From positions 3,750,001 through 3,814,000 of the forward strand of contig NZ_OY735139.1 in NCBI RefSeq assembly GCF_963457605.1: a DNA stretch of 64,000 nt, in the 5' to 3' direction. Made by a program: the position numbers and the translations under genes. The notes beneath the pieces were generated by a model, which did not search any database, was not told the origin of the DNA, and saw only the letters and a list, made by a program, of their open reading frames with translations. The DNA is from an uncultured Gellertiella sp. GTDB taxonomy: Bacteria; Pseudomonadota; Alphaproteobacteria; Rhizobiales; Rhizobiaceae. Below, in pieces: positions 12,555-30,891 of the stretch. Position 1 is the first letter of the stretch, and every line of letters starts with the position of its first letter.

Positions 12555-13541
12555 CTACCAGCGCTGGTGGACATGGGGAGCCACCAGCCGGTCATAGATC
12601 TCGCGGGCGGCGGACATGATGTCGTCGGAGAAGGGGGCAAGGCTTGCCGCCCCTGCATTGGCCCGCGCCTGCTCGGCATTGCGGGCACCGGGAATGACCA
12701 CGGTCACCGCATCGCTCATCAGGATCCATTTCAGCGCGAAAGCCGCCATGGTCGCCCCCTCCGGCACCAGCTTGCGGATTTCCTCGACGGCCTCCAGCCC
12801 GACCTCGAAGGGTACGCCTGCAAAGGTCTCGCCGACATCGAACTGTTCGCCATGGCGGTTGAACAGGCGGTGATCATCGGCGGCAAAATGCGTGTCGCGG
12901 GTGATCTTGCCCGACAACAGGCCGCTTGCCAGCGGCACCCGGACGATGACGGCGACATCATGCAGCTTGGCTTCCTCGAAGAACAGATGCGCCGGACGCT
13001 GGCGGAACAGGTTGTAGATGATCTGGATAGAGGCACAGTTCGGATATTCGATGGCCTTCATCGCCTCTTCGACCCGCTCGACGCTGACCCCCCAGGCCCC
13101 GATCTTGCCGGAGGCGACAAGCTCGTCCATGCCGTCGAGCACTTCTGGCCGGTAAAGCACATCGGTCGGCGGGCAGTGGAGCTGGACGAGATCGAGACAA
13201 TCCATATCGAGGTTCTTGCGGCTGCGGTCGATGAAGGCCTCGAGATTGGCCCGCGTATAGCCATCGGCGACATGCGGCGACAGGCGGCGGCCGGCCTTGG
13301 TCGCGACCATCGGGCGCTGCCCGGACCGGCTCTTCAGCACCTCGGCAATGATCCGTTCCGAACGCCCGTCGCCATAGACATCGGCGGTGTCGATGAAGCT
13401 CATCCCCGCATCAAGCGCGGCATGGAGGGCCGCGCGTCCATCCGCCTCGCTGACATCGCCCCAGGCGCCGCCGATCTGCCAGGCACCAAAGCCGATTTCC
13501 GAAACGGTGAAGGGGAGGCGGCCAAAGGAATGGGTGCGCAT
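12555..13541 (-). CDS. Aldo/keto reductase
   Basis: A 328-aa NADPH-dependent oxidoreductase with the (alpha/beta)8 fold. The catalytic tetrad is visible: Asp and Tyr in FIDTADVYGDGRSE, Lys in MVATKAGRR, His in DLVQLHCPP. The C-terminal cofactor segment VVIPGARNAEQARANAGA fits the NADPH pocket. It matches the subgroup of MocA/YghZ-like soluble reductases; substrate unknown. It is monocistronic, convergent with the 11715 gene and divergent from the cytochrome c peroxidase. Confidence 0.92.
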   Translation of the reverse strand: MRTHSFGRLPFTVSEIGFGAWQIGGAWGDVSEADGRAALHAALDAGMSFIDTADVYGDGRSERIIAEVLKSRSGQRPMVATKAGRRLSPHVADGYTRANLEAFIDRSRKNLDMDCLDLVQLHCPPTDVLYRPEVLDGMDELVASGKIGAWGVSVERVEEAMKAIEYPNCASIQIIYNLFRQRPAHLFFEEAKLHDVAVIVRVPLASGLLSGKITRDTHFAADDHRLFNRHGEQFDVGETFAGVPFEVGLEAVEEIRKLVPEGATMAAFALKWILMSDAVTVVIPGARNAEQARANAGAASLAPFSDDIMSAAREIYDRLVAPHVHQRW

Positions 13542-13868
13542 GAAGTCTCCTGTGCTGAAATGAGCGAAATTGTCCTTTCGGTATTGTGCAAGCCGCAGGG
13601 CATGTCCAGCAAAAATACCGCTGGTGAGAGGTGTGTGGTTTTGATTTACAACTAAATATACCCGTTAGTATTGTCTTTTATCAGAATTTTCACCGGGAAG
13701 TCGGCCGTTCCGTCCTTTGTCATAATTAAAATGGATGGTTGGACTTAGAATTAATTAATATTTTATAGTACTATATAATGATTTTGGAACGATGACCGGT
13801 TTGGTCCCGCATGATGCGATATCGCGCCCCTCCTGGGCATGAAAACATCTCTGTCACCGGGTCCGCTC
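13542..13868. other. AT-rich intergenic region
   Basis: About 330 bases between two divergent genes, markedly AT-rich from 13640 to 13790 (several runs such as TTAATTAATATTTTATAGT). It should hold the promoters of the aldo/keto reductase and of the peroxidase-chemoreceptor pair. No clear operator was identified. Confidence 0.5.
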
Positions 13869-14852
13869 ATGTTGAAAACGCTTGTCTCCCTTGCCTGCCT
13901 GACCGTGGCGCTGCCGGCGCTGGCGGGAAATCTCGCCGATTACCGGCGACCCGACATGATCCCGTTCAAGGGGGTGACCCCCTATTCGCCGCAGCTGGCG
14001 ACACTGGGCAAGATGCTCTATTTCGATCCGCGCCTGTCCGGTGCGAAGAACATGAATTGCGCCTCCTGCCACAATCCCTCCTTCGGCTTCGAGACACCGG
14101 TGAAGACGGCGATTGGCGCGGCCAATCTGGCGCTGCCCCGTCAGGCCCCTACGGTTCTCAACGCCGCCTGGGTGACCCCGATGTTCTGGGACGGGCGCGC
14201 GCCGGATCTGGAAGCGCAGGCCAAGGGGCCGATGACCTCGCCCAAGGAAATGAACGGCGACATGCATGCCATTGTCGCCGATCTTGCCTCGGTTGCCGAT
14301 TACAAGCGCTGGTTCGACGAAACCTTTCCCGGCAAGGGGATTACCGAGGACACCGTGCTGACGGCGATTGCCACCTATGAACGCACCGTGGTTTCCGGCT
14401 GGTCGCCCTTCGACCGCTGGGTCTATGGCGATGAAAAGGCGGTGAGCGACAGCGCCAAGCGCGGCTTCGACCTCTTCACCGGCAAGGCCCGCTGTTCCAT
14501 GTGCCATGCCGGCTGGAACTTCACCGACAACCAGTTCCACGATATCGGCCTGCCGGATGACGACATCGGGCGCGGCAAATACGAGCCGGACAATGTCAAG
14601 GCGCAGCATGCCTTCAAGACTCCGGGCTTGCGCAATTCCGCCTATCGCGCCCCCTACATGCATGATGGCAGCATCCCCGATCTGGATGGGGTGATCCTGC
14701 ATTACGAGGCCGGCATTACCGACCGGCCGTCGCTCTCCGACAAGCTGAAAGCGCTTGTCCTCACCGATGACGAGCGGACAGATCTCGTTGCCTTCATCCA
14801 TACGTTGACTGCTGACAAGCAGGAAACCCCGCTGCCGATCCTGCCGAACTGA
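13869..14852 (+). CDS. Di-haem cytochrome c peroxidase, periplasmic
   Basis: A 327-aa periplasmic protein of the CcpA/MauG family that reduces hydrogen peroxide with electrons from c-type cytochromes. The signal peptide is [21 protein letters not shown]. The two haem sites are CASCH (64-68) and CSMCH (209-213); further family landmarks are [13 protein letters not shown] near the N-terminus and [18 protein letters not shown]. An ATG at 13839 would add ten residues before the signal peptide; 13869 gives a normal one. Neither start has a strong ribosome site. A chemoreceptor follows after 10 bases. Confidence 0.9.
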
Positions 14853-14862
14853 GGTGCGTTCC

Positions 14863-16755
14863 ATGTCGATCCGGTTTCTCTTCATCATTCCCCTGATCGT
14901 AGCGGTCACCGCCGGTCTGGCAACTGCATGGTACATTGCCGACAACGCCACACGCGGTCAGTCGGGCGTCGCCCTCGTAGTCAACGCGGCGATGGATGCC
15001 AAGACCTATTCCACCGAGGCGGGCCATGCCTTCGATGAGGCGAATGGCGTCGTCGACCGGGTGATGGCGATGACCACCTATATCGCGCCCGCTGATGTCA
15101 AGACCATGTTCGATGCGGCCAATGGCAAGCTGAAGGCCGATCTCGACGCTTTCGCCCGGAACAGTCTCTCCGATGACGTCTCTGCCGAGGTGCAGACGCT
15201 GATCAGGCTGCATCAGGGCTGGGAACATGATGCCCGCATCGTGCTTGGCCTTGACCCGTCCGAGGGCGTGCCGACCCAGGAGCGCCTCAGCGAAAATGAA
15301 GCGGGGCTGAGGGCGGAGCTGGCGCGTATCGATGACCTCGTCAGCAAGACGGCGACCGAAAAGGTCTCCGCAGCCGGCAAGGGTCTCGCCGCCGATATCC
15401 AGCAGGTGCTGACCATGGCGGCAGTAGCGGCGGGCATCGGCTTCCTGCTGATCCTGGTGCTGTCGCACAGCATCACCAGCCCCATCGTCAAGGTGACCCG
15501 GGCGATGCGCCAGCTTGCCGATGGCGATGTGGACGTGAAGGTGCCACGCAAGCGCGGGGCCAGCGAAATCCGGGCGATGATCGAAACCCTGTCGGTGTTC
15601 CGGGCCAATGCGCTGGAACGGCTGACGCTGGAGCGCTCGACCCAGAGCCAGAATGCCAGCCTTGCGGCGATCTCGTCGGAAGCCGGACTGTTGCAGACCC
15701 AGGTGCGCGATGCGGTGACGCGGGCTGCCGAGGGCGATTTTTCCGCCCGGGTCCATGGACCATTCCAGCGCGAGGAGCACAGCGAACTCGCAGGCCAGCT
15801 CAATTACCTGTTCTCCAGCGCCCAGGCGGGCATTTCGGAAACGATCCGGGTGCTGGCAGCCCTTGCCCAGGCGGATCTGACCGTGCGCTTCGAAGGCCAG
15901 CATCGCGGTGCCTTCGCCAGGCTGCAGGCCGATACCAACAGCGTCACGGACCAGCTGTCCGATGTCGTCACCCGTCTGAAGGATGCCTGCGGCGCAGTGG
16001 CTGCCGCCAGCAGCGAAATCCTCGACGGCACGCGGGAACTGCGCCACCGCTCGGAAACCCAGGCGGGCACCATCCAGGAGACCACCGCCACCACCTATCT
16101 GGTCGCCGACACCGTCGGGCAGAATGCCGAGCGGGCCGGGGAGGCGACACGGGTGATCGCCGCCACCAACACGCTGGCCGCCGAAGGCAGCCGCGTCATG
16201 CACGGAGCGGAACAGGCGATGGAGCAGATCACCACCTCCTCGGGCAAGATCTCCGACATCATCGGCGTCATCGAAAACGTCGCCTTCCAGACCAATCTTC
16301 TGGCGCTGAATGCCGGTGTCGAGGCGGCCCGCGCCGGGGAAAGCGGCAAGGGCTTTGCGGTGGTGGCGACGGAAGTGCGCTCGCTCGCCCAATCCACCGC
16401 CAAGGCCTCCAACGAGGTGAAGGCGCTGATCCAGAAGAGCCAGGAAGAGGTGCGGGCAGGGGCCGACCTCGTGCGCCGCGCCACCGCGCAATTCACCGAA
16501 ATCGCCGCCTCGATTGCCGCCGTCTCGTCCCTGTCGAGCGAAATCGCCAGCGAAAGCAACGAGCAGACCCGCAACCTCCAGCAACTCACCGCCGCCATGA
16601 AGAGCCTCGACGAACTCACCACCTACAACGCCCGCCTCGTCGGCGACCTCGCCGGCTCCACCTCGCAGACCAACGACCATATGACCGTGCTGTCCGAAAT
16701 GGTGAGTATTTTCAGGATCAATCAGGCCGGGCAGCGGCAGCGGCAGGCGGCGTGA
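14863..16755 (+). CDS. Methyl-accepting chemotaxis protein
   Basis: A 630-aa membrane chemoreceptor. It has an N-terminal TM (about 4-25), a periplasmic helical sensor of about 160 residues, a second TM ([16 protein letters not shown], near 190), two HAMP-like segments ([23 protein letters not shown] and [14 protein letters not shown]), and the cytoplasmic signalling tip with [40 protein letters not shown]. The ATG at 14863 was chosen over a GTG at 14854 because GAGG lies 8 bases ahead. The 10-base gap to the peroxidase gene suggests an operon and a sensor for redox or oxidant conditions; that link is inference. No CheB/CheR-tethering pentapeptide is seen at the C-terminus. Confidence 0.93.
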
Positions 16756-16788
16756 GGGGGGAGGGGTGAGGGGGGGAGTGGGTGGGGA
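16755..16788 (+). repeat. G-run tract with G-quadruplex potential
   Basis: Starting at the stop codon of the chemoreceptor there are five G-runs (6, 4, 7, 3 and 4 G) separated by 1-3 bases. This satisfies the usual G-quadruplex pattern on the plus strand. It marks the left edge of the SIR2 gene region. Confidence 0.7.
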
Positions 16789-17019
16789 CCGTCTACTGCG
16801 CCGCTCTAGGAACTGAAAGCGGACAAACGTCTCTCAGGCGCACAGTCCGATCTGGCCCTAACTGAATTCTCTCAAAGCTGTGGTTTGATGCCCGGTTGAG
16901 TCTTCAGCGACTTCTTAGGGTCTGCTAATGCTACGGTCGCCCCCCCCAATACCGAAAAGTTGTGATACCTCCAATGAGTTGGTCTCGACAACGTGGTGCA
17001 AGCTTGCTCTATCTGAATT
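16789..17019. other. Upstream region of the SIR2 gene
   Basis: About 230 bases of lower GC than the neighbouring operons, with a run of eight C near 16940. No gene and no convincing promoter were found, yet the SIR2 gene must be transcribed from here or by read-through. Confidence 0.4.
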
Positions 17020-20000
17020 ATGAGATTCACCGCACATGGCCCCTCGATTCCCGACGAAATACTGCTCGCTCTTGACAGGAACGAGGTTGTTTTTTTCTGT
17101 GGCGCTGGAGTTTCGCAGGCTCGGGCTGGACTTTTAAACTTTGCGCAACTGGCTAAAAAGGTCATAGACCAGCTTGCACCTGCGAAAGGAAGCCCTGCGC
17201 GCAAGCTGCTAGACACCGCGACCAGTCTTAGCCCCATCGAAGGAGTCGGGGGCTTCGTAGCAACTGATAGGGTCTTCTCTCTCCTCGAGCGGGAATTTGA
17301 CACCTCGGATATTCACGCCGCAGTCGCGGCTGCATTGAAGCCGCAAGGTGATGCCGATCACTCAGCTCATGAAGTTGTGCTCGATCTGGCTGGCAGGAGG
17401 TCTGGGGCCATCCGTCTGGTCACCACCAATTTCGATCGGTTGTTCGAAGATTGTGATCCCAAAGCAAGATCGATCGGGCCAGGGCATCTTCCTGACCCGA
17501 AGCGTGCCGATTTGAATGCAGTGATTCATCTCCATGGACGTGTCGACCCGAAATATCTCGGCTCGGACGACGAAGGCTTCGTTTTATCGAGCGGCGACTT
17601 CGGCCGCGCCTATCTTGCCGACGGCTGGGCTGCCAGGTTCATCCAGTCCCTGCTCTCACGTTTCAGCATAGTGTTTCTCGGCTATTCGGCCGACGACCCT
17701 CCTGTGCAATACCTGCTGGAAGCTCTGAAGGGAGCCTCTCAGGCACATGGGCGAATGTACGCTTTCCAGTCCGGCGAGAGCGCTGTCGCTTCTTCCCTGT
17801 GGGAGAACAAGGGCGTACATGCGATGGCCTACGATCCGTCCGACGGACATAAAGCCCTGTGGTCGACCTTGGAAGCATGGGCACAACGCGCCATCGACGT
17901 CGATGGATGGCACGACCAGGTTATCGAGAAAGCGGTTCGCGGTCCCGAGGCGTTACATCCCCACGAGCGTGGTCAGGTCGCTCACATCCTTTCATCTGCG
18001 GATGGAGTCCGCCGACTGACGCAGCTTGCTGATGGCGGCATTCCAGCTTCATGGCTTCGCGTTATCGATCCAAGGGAGCGCTATGGACAACCCGAAATAG
18101 ACGCGAGCTCGTCGAAAGGACGTATCGATCCATTCGATCAATTCGGCCTTGACGACGACGTACCACCGCCGCCGCCTGATTCCCATGAACGCAACCGCTC
18201 AAATCTGACACAACCACGGGAGGTTCCAAAGAATAGCTGGGACGGTTTCGATTTATACCCGAGTGATGCGTTGGACGCGGCTCTGTGGTCGGGGATCTTT
18301 TATGGACGCAACGCTGCCATAGCGGACGCATTGCCGACCCGCCTCGATCTACTCGCAATCTGGCTCATGAACGTGGCGCATCAACCGGACGCGTTCTCGT
18401 GGGCGTTGAAACAACCCGATGTCCATCCACGGGTAAAGGTTTTGTTGTCGTCGGCGATCAGAGGCGGAGCCGACAAGTTTCCCGCCGAGATCGCACGGGG
18501 GTGGCGATATCTATTCCGGACGTGGGAGGACCGTCGCGAAGAACCTGATCAAGTCGCCTCCGCTATCTCGGCCGAAGTAAATGCTTCGGTATGGTCTGAC
18601 GAAATGGTGCGGCGTCTCATGAGCACTCGGCGCCCTCGCCTCAGAATAGAGCCGCCCTTCAGAGTTGGACCATCATCTGACGATGACCGAGTTTTCATTT
18701 TGAAGATCGAGTATCCGATGCCCGATGTCGATGTGGAGGTTCCGCCGGAGATGCTTAGAGTTGCCGTCGCGAGGCTTCGTGAAAACTTGGACTATGCGAG
18801 ATCGCTTGAGGCTGAAGTGCGTGGGAGCGATTGGATCTATTTGCCAACGACATACGAGACCGATGCACAGCCCCTGGACTTGCATGGCTATGGCCTTGTG
18901 GGACCTGTTTTGGAAATGCAGAGAATGCTGGCCCGCCTGGCCGCCAACGATCCTGCGACTGCGCATGCCGAGTTTCTCCGGTGGCCAGTTGACGACGACG
19001 GTATCTTCTCCCGGTTACGCATATGGGCGGCTCGTCATCCGAGTATCACGACGGCTGAAGAGGCAGCGACGATATTAGTAGGGCTGTCGGACAAGGCCTT
19101 CTGGGGAAGCCTTCACCAGCGCGACCTCTTGATGACCTTCAGCCGTCGATGGAGCGACTTTCCGCAGCGGGCTCGTCTTGAGATAGAGCGCAAGCTAACC
19201 TCCACCAACTATCCCGGGGAGAACCCCGGCAGAAGTGCTGAATACAACGACCGAGCGCTCCTCGAGCGGTTGCGATGGCTCGACGCTCAGGACTTGCGGT
19301 TCTCGTTCGACATCGAGGGGATGGTTGCCGATATAGCTGCCAGGCTAGGAGGTGAGCTACCGGACATCGATGACGCAATCGAGGACACTCAGCCGAAAGT
19401 GTTCTCAATCGCGACGAATAACGATCCCGGAGTCCTCAACGCGCTCCCAATTGCGGAGATCCTCTCCAACGCAAGAGTTCCTGAGGAAATCGACTATCGA
19501 AACCACGTGCGACACGACCCCTTCTCCGGATTGGTAGAGCTGCGCCCCATTAAGGCGCTCGCGGCGCTCTCATACGAGGCGAGGAATGGGAGAATTCACG
19601 TCGAGGCTTGGGAGTCCTTTCTTCGCTCTGATAAAAGGGAACAGGACCCGACAAGGCTGCTGGGCCTGATCTGCGGGAGACTTGGGACTATGACGGCGGC
19701 GAATTTGTCGCAGATTCTCTATCCAGCGGGGGAATGGATGAAGCGCCTCGCTCGCCGCTTGGTGGCCGAGCTTCCGGATCCGTTCGAATCCTTGTGGCAG
19801 AAGATGGTAGAAGCTGCAGCCGCATTCCCTGCCACGGAAGGTGAGAGATATGCCGAGAGGAACTGGGCCGACGACGGCCTGAACAGGCCTGTTGGAATGT
19901 TGACGCAGGCCCTCCTTCAAGATCCCAGTCTTTCAGGGAGACGTCGGAACTCAGGACTGCAAGCAGACTGGAAGGCGAAGATGGAAACCCTCCTGTCTCT

Positions 20001-20808
20001 ACCTGGTGATCTGCGTCGGCATGCCCTTGTCTTCGCATCATTCCAATTCGTGTTTTTCTGGCTGGTCGATCCGAAATGGGCTGAAGCCGTAATCATGCCC
20101 AGCATGAAATCCGAAGGCCCTGACGGAGATGCGTTCTGGGATGGCTTTGTTTGGGCCAATTGGGTGCCCCCTCCACGACTATTCCGGAAGATGACAGTCT
20201 CGATTGTTCGCAGAGTTGCCGAAGGCTCCCGCCGAAAACCGATTACGGACAGCCTCGCAGACATACTCCTATACGCCTGGATCGAGTGGTTCGACCGGAA
20301 AAGGCCTCCGCTCACCAACGCGCAGTTTAGAGAGTCCATTGTCGAAGGCGGAACGCAGTTCGGGGTGCGGGTGCTCTGGAAACTAAGGGGACGATTGAAA
20401 GAGAATACGGTGTCCCGCGAAAAGGTCGCCCTGTTTTTCCACGAGGTCTGGCCGCTTCAAAAGGCGCTGAAATCGGAAGAGACGTCGCGCGCGCTCAGCC
20501 GAGTCTTGTTCGAATCGGGAGATTTGTTCCCTGAGGTGGCGAGCCTCATCGTCGGGCGGCTCGTGCCGTGCGATAATTTCGACGCGTACGCGATATCCTC
20601 CGAAGAGATAGGCAGAATTATTGAGACTTATCCCCAAGCGCTTCTCGAGGTCCTCCTGCGCCTGCTGCCGATCGATGTTAACCGCTGGCCTCATTCGATA
20701 GGGAAAATCCTCGATCAGCTCGCCTGCGCGCCACAAGTCAACACTGATGCCGGTCTCATACGACTGAGGAGAATGATGGGACGACCGCTTATCCAACTTG
20801 CCAATTGA
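17020..20808 (+). CDS. Large SIR2-domain protein, probable NAD-depleting phage defence effector
   Basis: A 1262-aa protein with an N-terminal sirtuin-like domain (about 10-290) and a long, mostly helical C-terminal region of about 860 residues that was not recognised. The sirtuin NAD-site signatures are intact: FFCGAGVS (26-32), VTTNFDR with the catalytic Asn137, HLHG with His172, and FLGYSADDPP (219-228). A low-complexity linker with five Pro (382-386) separates the halves. In defence-associated sirtuins (DSR, ThsA) such domains hydrolyse NAD+ when a phage protein is sensed by the C-terminal part, giving abortive infection; the role here is inferred from architecture and size. It stands alone between conserved genes, convergent with the deacetylase. 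By eye its codons use more A/T in third positions than its neighbours, which suggests transfer. The ATG at 17020 lacks a clear ribosome site. Confidence 0.88.
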   Translation: MRFTAHGPSIPDEILLALDRNEVVFFCGAGVSQARAGLLNFAQLAKKVIDQLAPAKGSPARKLLDTATSLSPIEGVGGFVATDRVFSLLEREFDTSDIHAAVAAALKPQGDADHSAHEVVLDLAGRRSGAIRLVTTNFDRLFEDCDPKARSIGPGHLPDPKRADLNAVIHLHGRVDPKYLGSDDEGFVLSSGDFGRAYLADGWAARFIQSLLSRFSIVFLGYSADDPPVQYLLEALKGASQAHGRMYAFQSGESAVASSLWENKGVHAMAYDPSDGHKALWSTLEAWAQRAIDVDGWHDQVIEKAVRGPEALHPHERGQVAHILSSADGVRRLTQLADGGIPASWLRVIDPRERYGQPEIDASSSKGRIDPFDQFGLDDDVPPPPPDSHERNRSNLTQPREVPKNSWDGFDLYPSDALDAALWSGIFYGRNAAIADALPTRLDLLAIWLMNVAHQPDAFSWALKQPDVHPRVKVLLSSAIRGGADKFPAEIARGWRYLFRTWEDRREEPDQVASAISAEVNASVWSDEMVRRLMSTRRPRLRIEPPFRVGPSSDDDRVFILKIEYPMPDVDVEVPPEMLRVAVARLRENLDYARSLEAEVRGSDWIYLPTTYETDAQPLDLHGYGLVGPVLEMQRMLARLAANDPATAHAEFLRWPVDDDGIFSRLRIWAARHPSITTAEEAATILVGLSDKAFWGSLHQRDLLMTFSRRWSDFPQRARLEIERKLTSTNYPGENPGRSAEYNDRALLERLRWLDAQDLRFSFDIEGMVADIAARLGGELPDIDDAIEDTQPKVFSIATNNDPGVLNALPIAEILSNARVPEEIDYRNHVRHDPFSGLVELRPIKALAALSYEARNGRIHVEAWESFLRSDKREQDPTRLLGLICGRLGTMTAANLSQILYPAGEWMKRLARRLVAELPDPFESLWQKMVEAAAAFPATEGERYAERNWADDGLNRPVGMLTQALLQDPSLSGRRRNSGLQADWKAKMETLLSLPGDLRRHALVFASFQFVFFWLVDPKWAEAVIMPSMKSEGPDGDAFWDGFVWANWVPPPRLFRKMTVSIVRRVAEGSRRKPITDSLADILLYAWIEWFDRKRPPLTNAQFRESIVEGGTQFGVRVLWKLRGRLKENTVSREKVALFFHEVWPLQKALKSEETSRALSRVLFESGDLFPEVASLIVGRLVPCDNFDAYAISSEEIGRIIETYPQALLEVLLRLLPIDVNRWPHSIGKILDQLACAPQVNTDAGLIRLRRMMGRPLIQLAN

Positions 20809-20886
20809 TAGCGGTGTCCGCTTCGGCGGTGAGGCGAAGACGGCTCCAATGACCGAAACGAATGCGCAAAGCATACATTCCCCGCC

Positions 20887-21924
20887 TTACGCCCCCTCAA
20901 ACCCCTGCAGCACGCCCACGGCGTTCACGGCGATTTCGGCGACGGCGTAGCCGCCTTCCATGACGAAGAGGGTGGGCAGGCCGAGTTTGGCGATGCGGGC
21001 GCCGATGACGGGGTAGTTTTCGGTCTTCAGCCTGAACTTGCTGATCGGGTCCTTCTCGAACGTGTCGACGCCCAGCGAGACGACGACCACGTCGGGCTGG
21101 TAATCGGCGAGCTTGCGGCAGCCGTCTTCCAGTGCCTGGCTCCAGACATCCCAGCCGGTGCCGTGATGCATGGGATAGTTGATGTTGAAGCCTTCGCCTT
21201 CGCCAGCGCCCCTTTCGTCGGCAAAGCCGAGGAAATGCGGATATTCGTCATCGGGATGGCCATGCAGGTTGATCACCTGCACATCGGCGCGGTTGTAGAA
21301 GATCTGCTGGGTGCCGTTGCCATGGTGATAGTCGACATCGAGGATCGACACCCGGCGCGCCCCCTGGTCGAGAAAGCGCTGGGCGGCGACGGCGGCATTG
21401 TTGATATAGCAATAGCCGGCCATGAAATCGGTGCCGGCGTGATGGCCGGGCGGGCGGCAGAGGGCAAAGGCCGAGGTCTCGCCGGCATTCATCAGGTCGA
21501 CGGCGGTCAGCGCCACGTCATGCGAACTCTTGATCGCGTCCCAGGTGCCCGCGACGAAGCCGACGCTGTTGTCGAAGGAATAATAGCCGAACTGCGCATC
21601 GAAATGCCGTGGCAGCACATCCTGCCGCACGGCCCGCGTCGGGAAGACATAGGGAAGGGCGGTCGCATCCGCGGGGCGTCCTTCGGCCAGCCACCGGTCC
21701 CAGACGGTCGGCAGGAAGGCCAGATAGTCGGGTTTGTGCACCTTCGCGGCGGTCGAAAGATCATGTTCGGCGGGGGCAAGTACCGGGCCAAGGCCGACGT
21801 CATGAATGCGCTGGTGGATATATTCCGCCCGTTCCGGCTTTTCGAAACAGGGCACGGGCTGGCCGAAGACGACTTCGATATGGCCGGAATGGCCCTTGTG
21901 ACGGGGGGAATAGACAGTTTTCAT
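20887..21924 (-). CDS. Histone-deacetylase-family acetylpolyamine amidohydrolase-like enzyme
   Basis: A 345-aa zinc hydrolase of the HDAC superfamily. The active site is complete: the His pair in RPPGHHAG (161-162), zinc ligands Asp198 and His200 in DVDYHHGNG, and the third Asp in SLGVDTF. The start MKTVYSPRHKGHSGHIEVVFGQPVPCFEKPERAEYI and the length match acetylpolyamine amidohydrolases of Mycoplana/Pseudomonas, which release acetate from N-acetylputrescine and relatives. It lies last in a minus-strand set with a polyamine-type ABC transporter, which supports that substrate class. A terminator-like hairpin separates it from the binding-protein gene. Confidence 0.88.
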   Translation of the reverse strand: MKTVYSPRHKGHSGHIEVVFGQPVPCFEKPERAEYIHQRIHDVGLGPVLAPAEHDLSTAAKVHKPDYLAFLPTVWDRWLAEGRPADATALPYVFPTRAVRQDVLPRHFDAQFGYYSFDNSVGFVAGTWDAIKSSHDVALTAVDLMNAGETSAFALCRPPGHHAGTDFMAGYCYINNAAVAAQRFLDQGARRVSILDVDYHHGNGTQQIFYNRADVQVINLHGHPDDEYPHFLGFADERGAGEGEGFNINYPMHHGTGWDVWSQALEDGCRKLADYQPDVVVVSLGVDTFEKDPISKFRLKTENYPVIGARIAKLGLPTLFVMEGGYAVAEIAVNAVGVLQGFEGA

Positions 21925-30692: not shown

Positions 30693-30769
30693 GCGGGTGT
30701 AGCTCAGTCGGTTAGAGTGCCGGCCTGTCACGCCGGAGGTCGCGGGTTCGAGCCCCGTCACTCGCGCCA
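30693..30769 (+). tRNA. tRNA-Asp (anticodon GUC), copy 1
   Basis: A 77-nt cloverleaf, GCGGGTG...CACTCGC-G-CCA with CCA encoded. The anticodon stem CCGGC/GCCGG encloses CTGTCAC, anticodon GTC. Confidence 0.96.
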
Positions 30770-30814
30770 TTCTTGAATCTGTCCGATTGGGCCGAAAGTC
30801 CCTCTTAAAAATGC

Positions 30815-30891
30815 GCGGGTGTAGCTCAGTCGGTTAGAGTGCCGGCCTGTCACGCCGGAGGTCGCGGGTTCGAGCCCCGTCACTCGCGCCA
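30815..30891 (+). tRNA. tRNA-Asp (anticodon GUC), copy 2
   Basis: Identical over its 77 nt to the copy 45 bases upstream. The pair is probably one transcript. Confidence 0.96.

Follow-up and report, generated by a model that had tools for sequence, protein, structure and literature searches.

What does a solitary gene for a 1262-residue SIR2 protein do in a rhizobium-family soil bacterium? The gene lies in a 64,000-nucleotide stretch of contig NZ_OY735139.1 from an uncultured Gellertiella sp. (hereafter the window, meaning that stretch at its full length), and the initial annotation had proposed it to be a nicotinamide adenine dinucleotide (NAD)-depleting anti-phage defence gene of an uncharacterised type. 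Overall, we consider it very likely that its product alone constitutes an anti-phage system of the DSR kind, in which a SIR2 NAD-cleaving enzyme (NADase) would be held off by a solenoid until phage triggers NAD+ depletion. The proposed role as an NAD-cleaving SIR2 defence gene is supported, whereas the type is a known one, its C-terminal region being homologous to that of DSR1. The open reading frame (ORF) at 17020..20808 on the forward strand is intact, with an ATG start, 1262 codons and 0 internal stops, and a Pfam scan of its product matched SIR2_2 at residues 133-268 with an E-value of 1.5e-18, which indicates that the match is not due to chance. The poly-proline linker that had been described is the PPPPPD at residues 382-387. 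The gene also stands alone as claimed, with a chemotaxis-receptor gene ending at 16755 on its left and a convergent histone-deacetylase-family gene (20887-21924) on its right. Its base and codon use is indeed unlike that of its neighbors, as it has a GC fraction of 0.571 and a third-position GC fraction (GC3) of 0.618, compared with a GC3 of 0.79-0.82 across the four recognised genes closest to it (aldo/keto reductase, cytochrome c peroxidase, chemotaxis receptor, and histone deacetylase). It should be noted that, among the 26 ORFs surveyed for GC and GC3, five others were likewise at 0.57-0.66, some of which are perhaps not genes.

The identity of the system turns upon the C-terminal ~860 residues, for which a DUF4020-like, a DSR1-like, or an entirely new region had been considered. 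DUF4020 yielded no Pfam match in the window protein (E<=1) or in nine proteins from six of its relatives (E<=0.01). The PADLOC Dsr1 profiles matched the window protein with E-values of 9.1e-68 (best region, residues 1-353) and 2.7e-67 (best region, residues 1-311). To compare the C-terminal parts only, we built hhalign profiles lacking the SIR2 domain from the window protein plus 12 relatives and from five proteins of the annotated Dsr1 group, and these aligned over 793 columns with a probability of 100% and E=1.4e-39, while all four controls with one side reversed (two from this pair and two from others) remained at P<1%. Pairwise identity to six annotated DSR1 proteins was 33-36% in the SIR2 part and just 14-18% in the C-terminal part, and such a low value makes the C-terminal homology easy to miss. 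In a joint alignment of 56 window-side and 10 Dsr1-side sequences, with two distant rows excluded from both groups, 46 columns of the C-terminal part, with Trp in many of them, had the same majority residue at >=80% on both sides, and the window protein departed from that residue at five of the 46. From the profile match and these common conserved columns, we can conclude that the window protein is, as judged by sequence, homologous to DSR1 over its full length, including the C-terminal region from end to end. Thus, the DSR1-like option was the one that held, and neither DUF4020 nor a new region was borne out. An AlphaFold2 model of residues 395-1262 (pLDDT, the predicted local distance difference test, of 87.3) was mainly helical, and a fold search with the C-terminal model returned generic HEAT/ARM proteins as its top rows. 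The C-terminal profile had no sequence match at E<=10 among the PDB chains searched, which included DSR2.

All four motifs reported for the NAD site were found at their quoted residues, namely GAGVS 28-32, TTNFD 135-139, HLHG 170-173, and GYSADD 221-226, although not every position within them is conserved. We aligned the window protein with 86 of 98 relatives, the other 12 being omitted due to frame length, and G28, G30, S32, N137, D139, H172, G173, and D226 were identical in 87/87 sequences. Among the counted residues of HLHG, only H172 and G173 were invariant (residue 170 is H in 48/87 and Y in 39/87), and D225 of the ADD triplet was D in 65/87. The patterns used in the search for relatives favour N137, D139, and D226 but neither the glycines nor H172, which is in none of them. 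N137 and H172 are the predicted catalytic pair, matching N133 and H171 of DSR2 by motif. In the DSR2 literature, the N133A/H171A double mutant serves as an inactive control (PMC10973363) and alanine at either position reduces activity (PMC10981675). The predicted SIR2 fold was also closer to those of DSR2, ThsA, and KomC than to the classical Sir2 used in the comparison.

Among known systems, the closest is DSR1 (NCBIfam NF041818, PADLOC Dsr1), which shares with the window protein its one-gene arrangement, a similar size (annotated lengths of 1194-1279 residues), a SIR2 domain followed by a C-terminal region, and homology over the whole length; it differs in its low identity, its separate tree branch, and the Dsr1 cut-off, which the window protein does not reach. 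DSR2 of Bacillus subtilis, solved by cryo-electron microscopy, is shorter at ~1005 residues, and neither its trigger, the tail tube protein, nor its inhibitor DSAD1 is known to apply to the window protein. ThsA (Thoeris) and KomC, with chains of 485 and 264 residues, respectively, are shorter than the window protein and lack a large solenoid. KomC works with a partner protein. ThsA does as well (PMC10973363). DSR1 is described as an anti-phage system in PMC10952713 and PMC10973363, and the former, a review, states that, unlike other such systems, it blocks phage replication without cell death. Abortive infection, the mode inferred in the initial annotation, may or may not apply here. In the portions of the open-licence literature surveyed, structures and a trigger were found for DSR2 only, with DSR1 mentioned briefly, and our search returned no paper joining SIR2, phage, rhizobia, and defense system. 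By analogy with DSR2, the solenoid would keep the SIR2 domain inactive in uninfected cells until a component of the phage engages it, probably a structural protein as in the case of DSR2; the bound solenoid would then switch on the SIR2 domain as an NAD+ hydrolase acting through N137 and H172, NAD+ would fall, and phage growth would stop. We infer the NADase activity, the autoinhibition, the phage trigger, and the protection of cell or population. An NAD-cleaving SIR2 defence role is supported by the family, the fold, the conserved catalytic residues, a sporadic distribution, and the defence genes located near some relatives.

The window protein has numerous relatives and is not itself Dsr1 proper. 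Its NF041818 score was 309.6 bits against a cut-off of 1400, and therefore we file it in a DSR1-like sister branch. A tblastn search of plasmids found 68 records, 25 of which had one place spanning >=80% of the query; the nearest relatives were on a Sinorhizobium meliloti plasmid typed as conjugative (85% identity) and on a Rhizobium plasmid (71%). Scans of genome contigs and of IMG/VR viral contigs confirmed 352 of 414 and 18 of 35 stretches as relatives, respectively, and there was no relative among 50,697 phage records. Of the 352 genome-contig stretches, 80 were kept, from which 36 were picked for diversity. In a whole-protein tree (68 rows, quick method), a well-supported split separated annotated Dsr1 from the window protein, and all 36 of these genome-contig relatives, with several phyla named and some of them metagenome bins, were on the window's side. 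The C-terminal and SIR2 part trees (44 rows each, careful method) contained the same well-supported split, and the window protein was outside the clade of annotated dsr1 in all three, it being noted that the trees are midpoint-rooted only and that the long branches of NGR234 and R. leguminosarum 248 are of uncertain place. On these trees, the window gene is a member of an unnamed, widespread sister branch of annotated DSR1. As a separate observation, the distant DSR1-like protein of the Sinorhizobium fredii NGR234 plasmid (L031 1-8594) has both a restriction endonuclease and a TIR-domain protein close by.

We also examined the genes located near the relatives. Window-side relatives had CBASS and AbiEii, Shedu, or VapC toxins as neighbors, an annotated E. 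coli Dsr1 has restriction genes nearby, and other relatives had ordinary neighbor genes. Of 140 called ORFs neighboring the genome-contig relatives, 23 were dropped by hand (near-duplicates, very long ORFs, and ORFs next to homologues that were shortened or broken), and the remaining 117 matched 118 PADLOC families at E<=1e-10, a count of families rather than genes, since one gene can match many families. The 25 of these 118 that were listed include BREX BrxL, Shedu, CBASS phospholipase, AbiEii, and type I and IIG restriction. The 88 control ORFs matched five families (best E 2e-30), although the control, consisting of the window and four syntenic stretches, is smaller and taxonomically narrower, and the crude ORFs in both sets may include non-genes. 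Some of the CBASS, AbiEii, and Shedu neighbors are on plasmids shared with the single-locus cases, or on close copies of these, and are not independent of them. The comparison is offered as support only.

The many plasmid-borne relatives, with 23 of the 68 plasmid records typed as conjugative, would also fit a role in competition between elements, in which the solenoid senses the conjugation or replication of an incoming plasmid or other mobile DNA and NAD depletion removes the recipient. Short prokaryotic Argonautes acting with Sir2 domains do detect invading phage or plasmid DNA, according to PMC10981675. However, the homology is to DSR1, itself an anti-phage system as cited above, relatives also occur on the 18 viral contigs, and plasmids carry phage defence too. 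We therefore regard a mobile-DNA target as unlikely.

A housekeeping or stress-regulated sirtuin, acting as a deacetylase or an NAD-dependent regulator with no defence role, might be suggested by the adjoining histone-deacetylase-family gene, yet three of the four other genomes of the genus have that gene without the SIR2 gene. In the gene-presence comparison that the initial annotation had called for, the protein was far from being conserved at this site in all relatives: four of 61 related genomes had a match, a count that includes the source genome, and the remaining four genomes of the genus, one of them only 77% complete, had none. Across the family, a Dsr1 profile matched in 20 of 394 genomes at E<=1e-20. 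Such a rare, patchy distribution and a codon use unlike that of the neighbors both argue against housekeeping. Furthermore, classical sirtuin deacetylases carry a four-cysteine zinc module in the SIR2 domain. No such zinc-binding set was found in residues 1-310 of the window protein, which hold just Cys27 and Cys145. Together with the fold comparison above, this makes a housekeeping function highly improbable.

The site itself is variable. In two genomes of the genus (G003 and G004), aldo/keto reductase and histone-deacetylase genes bracket the same spot but enclose other genes, ~2 and 4 kb of them, whereas the window carries its SIR2 gene there together with those for the peroxidase and the chemotaxis receptor (13545-20886); this different content between the same flanks is what identifies the spot as variable. 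By eye, one of these two spots carries haemolysin-type repeat proteins, and that of G003 has two adjoining proteins of 321-322 residues with similar C-terminal ends, an apparent tandem duplication (L170 7835-8800 and 8916-9884). In a third genome, the histone-deacetylase gene adjoins apparent ClpP and ClpX genes (again by eye), with Lon farther out. Based upon codon use and the plasmid relatives, the SIR2 gene was probably gained at this spot rather than lost from the others.

Lastly, that the gene is decaying or inactive cargo without present function is scarcely credible: 12 of the 98 relatives do have frames outside 1200-1300 residues (some broken by contig ends), but the window copy is intact, retains every catalytic residue, and has a ratio of nonsynonymous to synonymous substitution rates (dN/dS) against its nearest relative that points to functional selection. 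Compared with the S. meliloti relative, dN/dS was 0.22 in the SIR2 part and 0.30 in the C-terminal part, with an overall span of 0.22-0.40, and these low values indicate purifying selection on a gene kept for its function. The same ratio against Rhizobium sp. L51/94 was unusable (dS of 1.7-2.6 or undefined); identity to that relative was 66% in the C-terminal part and 85% in the SIR2 part. Lower C-terminal conservation is as expected of a sensor and may have other causes as well. On balance, we regard the window gene as a real defence gene of a known kind, probably acquired horizontally.

The survey of the family also uncovered a two-gene form of the system. In five of the 20 genomes with a Dsr1 profile match, the SIR2 part and the solenoid are encoded by distinct same-strand genes, adjacent or overlapping, in the order of a SIR2 protein of 395-420 residues and then a solenoid protein of 751-920 residues, and two plasmids have the identical two-gene order. 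Of the other genomes, 11 have one frame of >1100 residues, and the frames of the remaining four are shorter, in some cases lying at the end of a contig; among these fifteen, the window's genome was inspected closely and the rest were judged by their listed open frames. The seven split pairs (Table 1) formed a single clade on the Dsr1 side of both part trees, and Dsr1 was the best PADLOC match for 7/7 split proteins scanned. In the open-licence literature, to the extent that it was read, no account of a two-gene DSR1 came up. We give even chances to a DSR1-like superfamily that divides deeply into three or more branches (annotated DSR1, the window branch, and the two-gene rhizobial form), each sensing its own phage protein, in which the split form would be a natural two-component system with separable sensing and killing. 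Under that reading, the window branch probably has hundreds of members in several phyla.

Table 1. Features of the window and the two-gene loci found in other stretches
Feature	Position	Strand	Basis
Whole gene, 1262-residue DSR1-like protein: N-terminal SIR2 (predicted NADase) and C-terminal helical solenoid	17020..20808	+	ORF, full-length relatives, DSR1 profiles, C-terminal profile-profile match
SIR2 domain, ~residues 1-295	17020..17904	+	
N137 codon, predicted catalytic Asn, motif counterpart of DSR2 N133	17428..17430	+	Alignment
H172 codon, predicted catalytic His, motif counterpart of DSR2 H171	17533..17535	+	Alignment
Helical extension of SIR2 domain, ~residues 296-355	17905..18084	+	Model helices 314-324, 327-336, 345-349, mostly high confidence
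Linker, ~residues 356-415 (poly-Pro 382-387 = 18163-18180)	18085..18264	+	Mean pLDDT 47-52 near residues 391-404, two models
C-terminal HEAT/ARM-like helical solenoid, ~residues 416-1255, presumed infection sensor	18265..20784	+	AlphaFold2 model, fold search, DSR1 homology
Aldo/keto reductase gene, left flank of variable spot	12555..13541	-	Pfam; same relative place in G003, G004
Genes for a di-haem cytochrome c peroxidase and a chemotaxis receptor, within variable spot	13839..16755	+	Pfam; not at spot in G003, G004
Histone-deacetylase-family gene, right flank of variable spot	20887..21924	-	Pfam; 3/4 other genomes of genus have one
Two-gene locus, L184	5415-9252		
Two-gene locus, L185	4130-8148		
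Two-gene locus, L186	4578-8415		
Two-gene locus, L187	5589-9030		
Two-gene locus, L188	4524-8364		
Two-gene locus, L191	4812-8652		
Two-gene locus, L192	4730-8691		

Elsewhere in the window (30693-30891), there is a tandem pair of tRNA-Asp genes with the same anticodon, 45 bases apart, and a tRNA-Val gene is nearby on the opposite strand.

The gene is less novel than the initial annotation had hoped, and it is the branch and its two-gene relatives that deserve specialist attention. The two-gene relatives offer a ready route to the binding target of the solenoid and to the switching of the NADase. If the superfamily reading is true, a large group of proteins would pair an infection-sensing solenoid with a SIR2 NADase. 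The branch to which the window gene belongs is widespread and related to the less studied DSR1, and laboratory strains and phages are available for the plant-associated bacteria concerned.
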